NCBI GenBank assembly: GCA_021496505.1
Contig: CP053031.1
Location: 806,001 to 870,000 of the forward strand
DNA from: Thermoleophilia bacterium SCSIO 60948
GTDB taxonomy: Bacteria > Actinomycetota > Thermoleophilia > Solirubrobacterales > 70-9
Length of the DNA: 64,000 nucleotides
Reading direction: 5' to 3'
In this document: positions 16,245 through 26,854 of the stretch, one piece after another
Numbering within the stretch: position 1 is the first letter of the stretch
How the letters are laid out: every line of letters begins with the position of its first letter
Notes under the pieces: generated by a model
Database searches by the model: none
What the model saw: only the letters and a program-made list of their open reading frames with translations
Told to the model about the DNA's origin: nothing
Position numbers and translations under genes: made by a program

Positions 16245-18143
<1,899 letters not shown>

Positions 18144-18157
18144 ACGCTCTCGGCCGG

Positions 18158-18236
18158 CGGGCGCTCGGGCGGTCACCGTCAAGGGGGCGCTCCCCGTCCA
18201 TGGGCGCGCGACAGCTGCGGGCATCCATGCCCGCAG
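18158..18236 (-). repeat. Foldback element, left arm (copy A, inverted)
   Basis: On the minus strand this segment matches copy B (18378-18460) at about four of five positions over roughly 80 bases. It includes a core palindrome at 18215-18236 with 10-base arms (CTGCGGGCAT / ATGCCCGCAG) around CC. Read on the minus strand, it keeps an open frame with the words GMDARSCRAPMDG. Confidence 0.65.
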
Positions 18237-18377
18237 AGCCCCTTGCCGGCGACAACCCGAACACCCGCCCTTGAGCCGCAGCTGCGGACGAGTTTCCAGA
18301 CTTCCTCCCGACTCAGGGTCGGGACGTCTGCCGCGCCGCTGGAGGCGGGTGATCGGGGATGTCCACCCGGATGAGCT
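18237..18377. other. Centre of the foldback element, no gene seen
   Basis: About 140 bases between the two arms of the inverted repeat. It holds a 12-base palindrome CCGCAGCTGCGG at 18276-18287 and a 7-bp hairpin, TCCCGAC (18306-18312) with GTCGGGA (18318-18324). I see no convincing reading frame; ORFs crossing it end in the neighbouring genes' shadows. The hairpins may serve as terminators for the two convergent genes. Confidence 0.5.
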
Positions 18378-18460
18378 GTGCGGGCATGGATGCCCGCACC
18401 TGCCGGGGCCCCATGGATGGGGTCGGCCCCCTCATCCGGGGGGACTGCCCGATCGCCCGC
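18378..18460 (+). repeat. Foldback element, right arm (copy B)
   Basis: Inverted partner of copy A. Core palindrome at 18378-18399 (arms GTGCGGGCAT / ATGCCCGCAC around GG). In the + direction the same open frame reads GMDARTCRGPMDG, differing from copy A by both silent and replacing changes. Its end overlaps a further hairpin, CGCCCGC-AAGC-GCGGGCG. Confidence 0.65.
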
Positions 18461-18487
18461 AAGCGCGGGCGGTCAGGTCAACGGGCG

Positions 18488-18892
18488 CTAGTCGCCCAGC
18501 TGCATCGGCGGGCTCTGGTGGGGGCCGCCGGGGACGAGGCGCGACTCGGGCGCCTCGGGGATCGCCTCGGGCTGCTCGACCCCGAGCGCCTCGGCGAGCT
18601 CGCCGGACTCCGCCATCTCCTCCATGATGTCTGCGCCGCCGAGCAGCTCGCCGTCGACGTAGAGCTGGGGGAAGGTCCGCCAGTCGGATATCTCACCGGT
18701 AGCCTGGCGCAGCGGCTCGAGCGCCGGGAGCACGTCCACGGCTCCGTAGTTGGTGCCCATCTGCTCGAGGATCGAGACCGCCCGCATCGAGAAGCCGCAG
18801 CGCGGCATCTCGGGGGTGCCCTTCATGAACAGCAGGACCTTGTTCTCGCGGATCAGGCCCTCGACCTGCTCCTTGATCGAAGAGTCGGTCAT
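18488..18892 (-). CDS. Monothiol glutaredoxin, Grx4/GrxD family
   Basis: 134 residues. The monothiol signature KGTPEMPRCGFS (CGFS active site, residues ~24-35), the TFPQLYVDGELLGGADIM glutathione-binding region and the WRTFPQ motif define class II monothiol glutaredoxins, which bind a [2Fe-2S] cluster with glutathione and pass it on, usually with BolA. The BolA gene lies directly upstream on the same strand. The Pro/Glu-rich tail of ~25 residues is extra. The ATG at 18892 is preferred over GTG 18901 because it lies exactly 7 bases after a TATCGT box. Confidence 0.92.
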   Translation of the reverse strand: MTDSSIKEQVEGLIRENKVLLFMKGTPEMPRCGFSMRAVSILEQMGTNYGAVDVLPALEPLRQATGEISDWRTFPQLYVDGELLGGADIMEEMAESGELAEALGVEQPEAIPEAPESRLVPGGPHQSPPMQLGD

Positions 18893-18899
18893 GCCATCC

Positions 18900-18905
18900 A
18901 CGATA
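18900..18905 (-). promoter_or_regulatory. -10 box TATCGT, leaderless geometry, for the glutaredoxin gene
   Basis: TATCGT on the minus strand followed by exactly 7 bases and the ATG at 18892. It sits in the 42-base gap after bolA, so the glutaredoxin can be expressed separately. Confidence 0.5.
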
Positions 18906-23011: not shown

Positions 23012-23020
23012 CTGCTGCAG

Positions 23021-23124
23021 AGCCATCCAGAGCGACCGAGGGTCCCGGCCCGCTGAAGTCGCCGCAACCGGCCGCGGTCCCAGGACTCGAGGCACGGTGC
23101 GAACGCCGGGCTCGATGGATAGCC
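23021..23124 (+). ncRNA. SAM riboswitch (SAM-I/SAM-IV class) controlling metH
   Basis: The segment shows the conserved SAM-I/SAM-IV core in order: ATCCAGAG opening strand, GAGGGTCCCGGCCCGCTGAA, GTCGCCGCAACC, then GGTGCGAACGCC and closing TGGATAG pairing with the opening ATCCA. These match the family's GAGGGA..GGCCC..TGAA, CGGCAACC and GGTGCTAATTCC elements with covarying stems. It precedes metH by 92 bases, where a SAM-sensing OFF switch is expected. SAM-IV is the common form in actinobacteria, but I cannot decide between the subclasses by eye. Confidence 0.88.
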
Positions 23125-23215: not shown

Positions 23216-26200
23216 ATGAGCGAGCGCGACTTCCTCGCCGCGCAGCGTGAGCGCGTCGTCGTCTTCGACGGCGGCATGGGGGCGACGCTCGAGATGTTCG
23301 ATCTCAGCGCCGCCGACTACATGGACCTGCCCGGTAAGTGCCACGAGGCGCTCGTCCTCCAGCGCCCCGATGTGATCGAGGGCGTCCACGCCTCGATGCT
23401 CGACGCCGGCGCCGAGGTCCTCGAGACCGACACCTTCCAGGGCTCACGCCTCAAGCTCGAGGAGTGGGGGCTCGCCGACCACACCGTCGAGATCAATCAG
23501 AAGGCCGCCGAGATCGCCCGCAGGGCAGCCGGCGACAGCCGCTTCGTCGCGGGCTCGATCGGGCCGACGGGCTTCCTGCCCTCCTCGAGCGACCCGACGC
23601 TCGGCAACATGAGTTTCGGTCGCCTCGTCGAGGTCTTCGCCGAGCAGGCCGGCGCGCTGCTCGCGGGCGGCGTCGACCTGCTGATCATCGAGACCGCCCA
23701 GGACATCCTCGAGGTCAAGGCCGCGGTCTTCGGTGCCCGCCGCGCGTTCGCCGAGCAGGGTCGGCGCGTCCCGATCATCTGCTCCGCCTTCCTCGTCCAG
23801 CCGGGCTCGAAGATGCTGCTCGGAACCGATGTCACCGCGCTGCTCGTCACCCTCGACGCGCTCGACGTCGACGTCATCGGCCTCAACTGCTCGACCGGAC
23901 CCGAGGACATGCGCGATGCCATCCGCTACCTCGGTGAGAACAGCCCGCTGCCGGTCCACTGCATCCCCAACGCCGGCCTGCCCCAGCAGGGCCCCGATGG
24001 CGAGACGATCTTCCCCGCGACGCCGGAGGAGCTCTCGCGTGTCCTCGGCGAGTTCACGGAGCGACACGGCGTCTCGATCGTCGGTGGCTGCTGCGGCACG
24101 ACGCCCGAGCACATCGCGGCGATCGCCGAGCGCGTCAAGGACGTCCGGCCGGGCGAGCGCCCCGAGCGCTCGGATGTCTTCCGCGTCTCCTCGCTGATGA
24201 CCGCCGTCGACCTCGTCCAGGAGCCCGCTCCGACGATGGTGGGCGAGCGGGTCAACTCGCAGGGCTCGCGCAAGGCGAAGGAGATGCTGCTCGCCGACGA
24301 CTACGACGGACTCGTCTCGGTCGCCGAGGATCAGGTCGAGGGCGGCGCGCACGTGCTCGACGTCTGCGTGGCGCTCGTCGAGCGTCAGGACGAGGACGAG
24401 CAGATGCGCGAGACGGTGAAGCGGATATCGCTCTCCCAGCCCTCGCCGATCCAGGTCGACTCGACCGAGCCCGAGGTGATCCAGGCGGCGCTCGAGCAGA
24501 TCCCGGGCCGCGCGATCGTCAACTCGGTCAACCTCGAGGCCGGCGAGGAGAAGCTCGGGGTGGTCGCCCCGCTCGCGCGCGAGCACGGCGCCGCACTGAT
24601 CGCGCTGACGATCGACGAGGAGGGGATGGCGAAGACCGCCGATCGCAAGGTCGAGATCGCGAAGCGGATCCGCGATCTCGCCTGCGAGACGCACGGCCTC
24701 TCTCCCGAAGCGCTCATATTCGACGCGCTGACGTTCACGCTGACGACCGGCGATGAGGAGTGGCGGCCGTCGGCGGTCGAGACGATCGAGGGCATCCGCC
24801 GGATCAAGGCCGAGATCCCCGGCGTCAAGACCTCGCTCGGCGTATCCAACGTCTCCTTCGGCGTGTCGCTCAAGGCGCGCTCGGCGCTCAACTCGGTCTT
24901 CCTGCACCACTGCGTCGAGGCCGGGCTCGACCTCGCGATGGTCAACCCGAACCACATCACCCCCTACGGCGAGATCGGCGAGACCGAGCGCGAACTCGCC
25001 GAGGCCCTCGTGCTGAACCGCAGCGAGGACGCGCTCGAGCGCTTCATCGAGCACTTCGAGTCGCTCGGCGAGGAGTCCGAGGACGAGAAGGCCGACCCGA
25101 CCGAGGGCATGGAGCCCGAGGAGGCGCTGCACTTCCACATCCTGCGGCGAAAGAAGGACGGGGTCGAGGCCCAGATCGACGCCGCGGTCGAGAAGATCGG
25201 TGCCGTACCGACGCTCAACGGCGTCCTGCTGCCGGCGATGAAGGAGGTCGGCGACAAGTTCGGCGCCGGGGAGCTGATCCTGCCGTTCGTCCTCCAGTCG
25301 GCCGAGGTGATGAAGAAGGCGGTCGCGCAGCTCGAGAACTACCTCGAGGTCGCCGAGGGCCACACGAAGGGCACGATCGTCCTCGCGACGGTGTTCGGCG
25401 ACGTCCACGACATCGGCAAGTCGCTCGTCAACACGATCTTGACCAACAACGGCTACAACGTCGTCGACCTCGGCAAGCAGGTCCCGGTCGACCAGATCAT
25501 CGACGCCGCGGTCGAGCACTCCGCCGACGCGATCGGCCTCTCGGCGCTGCTCGTCTCGACCTCGAAGCAGATGCCGCTTTGCATCGGCGAGCTCCACGAG
25601 CGCGGCCACGAGTTCCCGGTCCTGCTCGGCGGCGCGGCGATCAACCGCGACTTCGGCCGCCGCGCGCTCTACCCGAAGGGCCGCGAGTCCGACGAGGTCT
25701 ACGAGCCCGGCGTCTTCTACTGCAAGGACGCCTTCTCAGGCCTCGCGACGATGGACTCGCTCGTCGACGGAGAGGCGCGCGACCAGCTGATCGAGAAGAT
25801 GCGAGACGAGGCGCGCCAGCTTCGCGAGAAGGTCGAGGTCCCCGACGACTCGCCGCCGACGACCGACGATTCCGTCCGCTCCGACGTCCGCACCGACGTC
25901 GCGGTCCCCGACGCGCCGTTCCTCGGCGCCCGCGAGATCGACGTCGCCCTCGACGAGGTCTTCCCATACCTCGACCGCCACGTGCTGTTCAAGCTCCATT
26001 GGGGCGGGCGCGGCAAGAAGGGCGAGGAGTGGCGGAAGATCGTCGAAGGCGACGGCGATGACGAGGGGTTCCGCCCGAAGCTCGAGCGGATGTGGGCCGA
26101 GCAGGACTACCTGCGCCCGAAGGCCAAGCTCGGCTACTTCCCCTGCGCCGCCGACGGCAACGAGCTCGTCATCTTCGACCCCGAGGACCAGGCGACGGAG

Positions 26201-26854
26201 ATCGAGCGACTCGTCTTCCCGCGCCAGCCGAAGCACGACCGGATCTGCCTGACGGACTTCTACCGCCCGCTCGCCGACACCGAGCCGGGGTCGCGCGACG
26301 TCGTCGCGCTGCAGGCGGTGACCGCCGGCGACGAGGTCACGAAGCGGATCTCCCAGCTCGAGGCCGACGGCGAGTTCGCCGAGCAGCTGTTCGTCCACGG
26401 CCTCGGCGTCCAGACCGCCGAGGGGATGGCCGAGTGGCTCCACGCCCAGGTCCGCCGCGAGCTCGGGATCCCGCTCTCGCAGGGTCGGCGCTACTCCTGG
26501 GGCTATCCGGCCTGCCCCGATCAGTCCGAGCACGAGAAGGTCTGGAGGCTTCTCGGCCTCGACGAGATCGGGATGTCGCTGTCGGGCGGCTACGCCGTCG
26601 AGCCCGAGCAGTCGACCGTCGCGATCATCGCCCACCACCCGCAGGCGGTCTACTTCGGGATGAAGTCCGGCTTCGTCCCCGAGCCGGACCGCGAGACCCC
26701 CGACGAGCTGATCGCCGGCACGGACCGCGGCGGCGAGCTGCCTCCGGAGTCCGATCTCGACGGCGACGGGACGATCGAGGCCGAGGGTGCCGACGGGTTC
26801 CGCGGGTCGGAGGCCCAGGAATCGCGCGAGGAGGCGGTCGGCTCCCAGAGCTGA
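23216..26854 (+). CDS. metH: Cobalamin-dependent methionine synthase
   Basis: 1212 residues, all four MetH modules. (1) Homocysteine-binding barrel (~1-310) with the zinc cysteines in GLNCSTG and GGCCGTTPEHI. (2) Methyltetrahydrofolate-binding pterin domain (~335-620; VGERVNSQGSRKAKE, FDALTFTLTTGDEEW). (3) Cobalamin cap and B12 domain (~640-870) with DVHDIGKSLV, the DxHxxG cobalt-ligating motif. (4) C-terminal reactivation domain (~890-1180; RPKAKLGYFPC, YSWGYPACPDQSEH, SLSGGYAVEPEQSTVAIIAHHPQA) that binds AdoMet. It remethylates homocysteine. SAM feedback through the upstream riboswitch fits this role. Confidence 0.96.
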   Translation: MSERDFLAAQRERVVVFDGGMGATLEMFDLSAADYMDLPGKCHEALVLQRPDVIEGVHASMLDAGAEVLETDTFQGSRLKLEEWGLADHTVEINQKAAEIARRAAGDSRFVAGSIGPTGFLPSSSDPTLGNMSFGRLVEVFAEQAGALLAGGVDLLIIETAQDILEVKAAVFGARRAFAEQGRRVPIICSAFLVQPGSKMLLGTDVTALLVTLDALDVDVIGLNCSTGPEDMRDAIRYLGENSPLPVHCIPNAGLPQQGPDGETIFPATPEELSRVLGEFTERHGVSIVGGCCGTTPEHIAAIAERVKDVRPGERPERSDVFRVSSLMTAVDLVQEPAPTMVGERVNSQGSRKAKEMLLADDYDGLVSVAEDQVEGGAHVLDVCVALVERQDEDEQMRETVKRISLSQPSPIQVDSTEPEVIQAALEQIPGRAIVNSVNLEAGEEKLGVVAPLAREHGAALIALTIDEEGMAKTADRKVEIAKRIRDLACETHGLSPEALIFDALTFTLTTGDEEWRPSAVETIEGIRRIKAEIPGVKTSLGVSNVSFGVSLKARSALNSVFLHHCVEAGLDLAMVNPNHITPYGEIGETERELAEALVLNRSEDALERFIEHFESLGEESEDEKADPTEGMEPEEALHFHILRRKKDGVEAQIDAAVEKIGAVPTLNGVLLPAMKEVGDKFGAGELILPFVLQSAEVMKKAVAQLENYLEVAEGHTKGTIVLATVFGDVHDIGKSLVNTILTNNGYNVVDLGKQVPVDQIIDAAVEHSADAIGLSALLVSTSKQMPLCIGELHERGHEFPVLLGGAAINRDFGRRALYPKGRESDEVYEPGVFYCKDAFSGLATMDSLVDGEARDQLIEKMRDEARQLREKVEVPDDSPPTTDDSVRSDVRTDVAVPDAPFLGAREIDVALDEVFPYLDRHVLFKLHWGGRGKKGEEWRKIVEGDGDDEGFRPKLERMWAEQDYLRPKAKLGYFPCAADGNELVIFDPEDQATEIERLVFPRQPKHDRICLTDFYRPLADTEPGSRDVVALQAVTAGDEVTKRISQLEADGEFAEQLFVHGLGVQTAEGMAEWLHAQVRRELGIPLSQGRRYSWGYPACPDQSEHEKVWRLLGLDEIGMSLSGGYAVEPEQSTVAIIAHHPQAVYFGMKSGFVPEPDRETPDELIAGTDRGGELPPESDLDGDGTIEAEGADGFRGSEAQESREEAVGSQS

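Follow-up and report, generated by a model that had tools for sequence, protein, structure and literature searches.

A Genus-Specific Dispersed Repeat with a Predicted Y-Shaped Fold and Twin AUGGAU Loops, Present as Two Opposed Insertions between Convergent Genes of a Thermoleophilia Bacterium

The ABC-F/Glutaredoxin Spacer

The stretch of DNA analyzed here (64,000 nucleotides, hereafter the window) contains an ABC-F ATPase gene and a glutaredoxin gene that converge on a spacer of 347 bases, and this spacer holds two inverted units, A and B, of the same repeat. The features of the locus are as follows:

16245–18143, + strand: ABC-F ATPase gene (Pfam ABC_tran and ABC_tran_Xtn), with its stop 12 bp before unit A
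18156–18272, + strand: unit A (subtype A), an imperfect palindrome of 117 bp topped by two hairpins; AUGGAU loops on the − strand
18195–18202, − strand: loop of the second hairpin of unit A, CATGGACG, of the AYGGAY type
18222–18229, − strand: loop of the long-stem hairpin of unit A, CATGGATG, invariant in 10/10 copies
18273–18341, no strand assigned: centre between units A and B, with a hairpin at 18297–18330; not found elsewhere as a repeat
18342–18462, − strand: unit B (subtype B), 121 bp, in the orientation opposite to unit A; AUGGAU loops on the + strand
18385–18392, + strand: loop of the long-stem hairpin of unit B, CATGGATG
18412–18419, + strand: loop of the second hairpin of unit B, CATGGATG
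18488–18901, − strand: glutaredoxin gene (Pfam PF00462), ending 25 bp from unit B

The initial annotation of this spacer had described two inverted copies of an ~80-base unit, about 80% alike, around a 140-base centre. The inverted pair is borne out, with an alignment score of 121.5 for unit A against the reverse complement of unit B, far beyond that of shuffled sequences (mean 33, sd 7, maximum 57). The lengths require correction, as the units measure 117 and 121 bp around ~70 bp, and the likeness, while real, amounts to 73% global identity with gaps over the full units. As described, the core palindromes of the two units differ solely at their centre, which is CC in one and GG in the other. 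Palindrome matches in the window were equalled by none of 100 shuffles, and the predicted fold of the 347-base spacer is ~10 sd more favorable than that of shuffled sequence. Consensus scans of the spacer found neither a terminator-like site with a T-run nor a promoter.

Two other identities were considered and rejected. DNA similar to the repeat is absent from the phage and plasmid collections searched, which speaks against an origin from either source, and a CRISPR direct repeat (CRISPR-DR29, RF01340) scored 23.7 bits, far below its threshold of 39, with the match covering a simple hairpin alone and no repeat array with spacers being present. Elsewhere in the window, a SAM riboswitch (RF00162, 50.6 bits) lies at 23020–23121 on the + strand, and ~95 bp downstream of it begins a long ORF (23216–26854) whose translation looks like methionine synthase.

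Copies across the Genome

The initial annotation had called for a search for further copies in the same genome and in relatives, and had stated that a lack of any other copy, with neither arm conserved in relatives, would point to a one-off local duplication; other copies do exist. Nucleotide searches located ten copies in the 3.42-Mb genome, whose gene content suggests an actinobacterial (Thermoleophilia-like) host: the two in the window and eight single ones at separate sites, and further copies were found in a congener; a covariance model recovers exactly the same ten copies in the genome. The copy at G000 1510541, which adjoins tsf, matches unit A at 97% identity, and the other seven match unit B at 88–95%, so that A and B represent different members of the family.

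All ten copies are intergenic and lie 3′ of at least one gene, several of them only 10–35 bp past the stop codon. Convergent spacers with copies are ABC-F/glutaredoxin, sigma-factor/PHP, and DJ-1-like/LysR-like, and co-directional ones are tsf-pyrH, acpS-nnrE, PfkB-like-guaB, Clp ATPase-radA, acyl-CoA-dehydrogenase-like-MFS, and gpmI-hsp20, several of these gene names having been assigned from translation. At eight of the ten copies, the gene closest upstream reads the AUCCAU strand (that with CATCCATG) first; only six of the ten have any flanking gene in the AUGGAU direction.

Five of the eight copies outside the window, the tsf copy included, have a tail of ~330 bp in common, giving a composite repeat of ~460–490 bp; window units A and B are without it. 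AYGGAY words within this tail sit inside stems rather than loops and were excluded as sites. The tail, seen at L007:1619–1960 and also in L002, L005, L006, and L009, occurs in variants with an ~60-bp deletion and holds a near-perfect hairpin (CGAACGTCCC...CTTATAAG...GGGACGTTCG), a relative of which stands alone at G000 3087477. Partial extra copies of the unit end (GGCGGGCGCTCGGGCAGTCC) are present at L002:1383–1500 and L003:1434–1500 and upstream of the unit in L007 and L009, and a further short repeat (GGCGAGCGCCCGGTCCCCCGAACGC) occurs just upstream of some copies; such loci are thus mosaics.

Insertion History

Comparison with relatives bears on the history of two of the sites. In a member of the same genus (G001), the ABC-F gene and the glutaredoxin gene overlap at their stop codons (CTAG), and in a second relative (G004) the BLAST matches to the two genes lie ~78 bp apart, versus ~370 bp in the genome under study. 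Likewise, among 32 relatives with both tsf and pyrH on one contig, the matches to these genes are 9–111 bp apart in 26 and 142 bp to 1.9 kb apart in the remaining six, against a spacer of 634 bp in the genome under study. Given the short or absent spacers in relatives, the material at both sites most likely arrived in the organism’s own lineage, and at the one site that could be checked, its arrival postdates the split from the congener.

The congener’s assembly, only 54% complete, contains five strong copies of its own together with a sixth, derivative one that is missing a hairpin. This single-loop variant, of subtype A and with the long hairpin gone, is found in L273 (contig C293:4000–5625), around 1250–1340. 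None of the congener’s copies has flanking DNA in common with the nine loci of the genome under study that were compared, and they carry a third set of stems around unchanged twin loops. Other genomes of the family yielded weak matches only, and these lack the twin loops. Taken as a whole, the unit is a genus-specific dispersed repeat, of which the window contains two insertions in opposite orientation.

Fold, Loops, and Strand Preference

The predicted fold of the unit is a Y, in which a stem of ~25 bp, broken by small mismatches, carries two hairpins. Both hairpin loops conform to CAYGGAYG in all ten copies, with CAUGGAYG being read on one strand. The Y is predicted for both subtypes and for the congener’s copies, the outer stem enclosing both hairpins in each case, and an alignment of the ten copies has three pairs of columns in which both partners vary yet remain paired. 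At the equivalent place, the inner stems of the two subtypes are unrelated, CAAGGGG/CCCCTTG in subtype A versus GGATGAG/CTCATCC in subtype B. The conserved part of the unit is its loops, and the stems vary. That the repeat is dispersed, folds as a Y, and has the insertion history outlined above can be held with high confidence, whatever is made of its function.

A structure that is maintained in one strand tolerates G-U pairs there, and these are seen as A-C mismatches on the opposite strand. Summed over the ten copies, G-U pairs number 40 on the AUGGAU strand and 4 on its complement, and in all ten the AUGGAU strand folds better, although the copies share ancestry and do not amount to ten independent observations. 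The same bias is evident in 37 less redundant twin-loop copies from other bacteria, where the corresponding counts are 121 and 58 and the AUGGAU strand is the more stable one in 32 of the 37. Judged by these predicted folds, the bias favors a function of the AUGGAU strand, either as RNA or as single-stranded DNA; the G-T wobble is tolerated in single-stranded DNA too, so the bias applies equally to both.

Twin-Loop Elements in Other Bacteria

Paired hairpins with AYGGAY loops are features of the TwoAYGGAY RNA motif (RF01731 in Rfam), which was described in 2010 by Weinberg et al. (PMC2864571) and is reported from the human gut, Gammaproteobacteria, and Clostridiales. The RF01731 model gave no match to the window copies even at an E-value of 10 and none to the congener’s copies at 0.5. 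As a positive control it performed as it should, yielding four matches in three Pseudomonas loci found by the twin-loop pattern; it missed the Stenotrophomonas, Xanthomonas, and Marinobacter loci tested and gave one sub-threshold match in Alteromonas. As the window copies do not match the model, they are termed TwoAYGGAY-like rather than filed as members.

A two-loop scan of 84,980 species genomes returned at least 120 stretches. The structured ones among the matches listed come from Gammaproteobacteria (e.g., Pseudomonas, Stenotrophomonas, Xanthomonas, Alteromonas, Saccharospirillum, Marinobacter, and Shewanella), where the twin-loop Y is common in intergenic DNA; their outer stems are often long, and most have loops 23 or 28 nt apart. 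Elements with 23-nt spacing occur in Stenotrophomonas, Xanthomonas, Alteromonas, and Saccharospirillum (loci L090, L093, L096, L129, and similar) and look like a large structured family that is poorly covered by RF01731. In a rough gene-calling test, twin-loop copies in other bacteria had no fixed orientation to neighboring genes. Within the class, a loose twin-loop pattern gave mostly coding-looking matches (e.g., response regulators), and no count outside the genus was drawn from it; a literature search on the loop sequences returned nothing relevant.

A Possible Role in CsrA Regulation

The leading idea for the function of the repeat is that it serves as a docking site for the RNA-binding protein CsrA. 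The genome encodes this protein (PF02599, 82 bits), with L4 and R44 kept as judged by eye. The sequence CAUGGAUG, located in a loop of six bases, fits the core of RUACARGGAUGU, the consensus obtained for CsrA by SELEX (reviewed in PMC7652899). Sites that lie 10–63 nt apart, and best more than 18 nt, can be bridged by one CsrA dimer (PMC7652899), a range with which the loop spacing of the units is compatible. In addition, a role as CsrA ligand has been proposed independently for TwoAYGGAY because its loops match the CsrA site and come in pairs (PMC4333381). Hairpins selected by SELEX mostly have stems of up to 4 bp and a purine before GGA (PMC7652899), whereas one hairpin of the unit has nine pairs and the base before GGA is U. 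Moreover, CsrA is encoded in 183 of 399 genomes of the class and the twin loops are confined to one genus, so the presence of CsrA alone fails to explain them. The orientation of the neighboring genes, which at eight of the ten copies favors the AUCCAU strand, and the failure to find a promoter also tell against docking. CsrA docking is predicted, tentatively and with somewhat less than an even chance of being correct.

If so, the AUGGAU strand would act as RNA, as part of antisense or read-through transcripts, and its pair of GGA loops, ~24 nt apart, would be placed to engage a single CsrA dimer. Individual copies might then serve as 3′ docking sites, or the copies together as a distributed sponge, and the outcome would be a change in mRNA stability or in CsrA availability. 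A dispersed Y-shaped repeat that arrived by insertion and docks CsrA is the best explanation in full for what is seen, one we put forward as plausible while placing it somewhat below the halfway mark.

Alternative Explanations

The strongest competitor is a selfish, non-autonomous palindromic element of the MITE-like kind with no role for the host, in which the Y fold and its loops would be recognized by a transposase, or by another enzyme that processes DNA, working on a single DNA strand. This is a serious possibility, though one rated at only around a third. It would account for the inverted ends common to most copies, for dispersal together with empty sites in relatives, for the species-specific subfamilies, for the five-copy composite with its ~330-bp tail, and for the missing orientation rule in other bacteria. 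Against it, the genome has no transposase of the Y1 (RAYT/TnpA) type (PF01797), no larger element with matching ends was noticed among the end-pattern matches, and visual inspection of the sequence flanking the ten copies shows no target-site duplication, as the initial annotation had also observed for the window. The unit end sequence occurs almost only at the known copies. Further, identical loops are found on unrelated stems in distant groups, which argues that their partner is not the transposase of any one lineage. Of the MITE/REP-type reading offered initially, the mobile repeat is thus upheld by the further copies and empty sites, and a REP element proper, mobilized by a RAYT, is rejected since PF01797 is missing from the genome.

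The repeat might also be an RNA 3′-end structure that acts by its stability alone, its stems blocking 3′ exonucleases or aiding termination for the upstream gene, a role that has been proposed for REP/PU sequences. The position of all ten copies downstream of a gene, several within 10–35 bp of the stop codon, fits such a role, as do the very stable folds. It is nonetheless improbable, because there is no T-run terminator-like site and because generic stability leaves both the nearly invariant twin CATGGATG loops and their recurrence in Gammaproteobacteria unexplained.

A small or decaying protein-coding gene was suggested by the peptide words GMDAR(S/T)CR(A/G)PMDG, which are indeed present in both arms and result from the ATGGAT in both conserved loops (CATGGATG). 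The open-looking stretch is common to the genome’s own copies, where the loop spacing is 27. In the congener, however, the loops are spaced by 24 and 25, and in elements from elsewhere mostly by 23 or 28; as the spacing is not a multiple of three in most relatives, the shared frame is lost. Moreover, 7 of the 11 codons that differ between units A and B are non-synonymous, the differences at codon positions 3, 2, and 1 number 6, 5, and 3 with no clear third-position bias, and two copies have upstream stop codons; the coding gene is rejected and has virtually no chance of being correct. Finally, a one-off local inverted duplication, attractive only in that A and B are the sole pair at one site, can be dismissed with near certainty, as their mutual identity is far below that of each unit to distant copies.

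Significance and Comparison with Known Systems

TwoAYGGAY has been without a known function since its description. The genome studied here offers a natural system in which to approach it, with ten copies, sites that are empty in close relatives, a single CsrA, and two subtypes that have swapped stems around constant loops. It also shows the twin-loop design to be capable of dispersal as a repeat and to extend well past the Rfam model. If CsrA does bind the repeat, its spread would give rise to new post-transcriptional regulation. At its most ambitious, the proposal would make the proliferating repeat a dual CsrA-binding RNA of which each insertion adds a 3′ docking site and rewires or titrates the CsrA network, the design having arisen in, or spread to, both Gammaproteobacteria and this unrelated lineage; this extended version is speculative and should be regarded as unlikely.

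Several known systems bear comparison. Like MITEs and ERIC-like palindromes, the repeat is ~120 bp long, multi-copy, intergenic, and non-coding, with inverted ends and variable presence at its sites; it differs in that no target-site duplication is visible and neither a Y1 transposase nor, among the end-pattern matches, a larger partner element was found, and its nearly invariant twin loops occur in other phyla too. REP/RAYT elements, which are palindromes tagged with GTAG/CGTC (PMC3733652), are likewise palindromic, extragenic, and dispersed, whereas the present unit is much longer and Y-shaped and resides in a genome without a Y1 transposase. With the CsrA-sequestering RNAs of the CsrB/RsmZ type, it has in common paired GGA hairpin loops and a genome that encodes CsrA. 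Those RNAs are each the product of one sRNA gene, while the repeat consists of many dispersed copies with no promoter found, and its unit has only two sites on very stable stems. Finally, the unit resembles TwoAYGGAY in having two AYGGAY-loop hairpins on a common outer stem; in contrast to that motif, the window repeat is genus-specific and dispersed, in a GC-rich genome.
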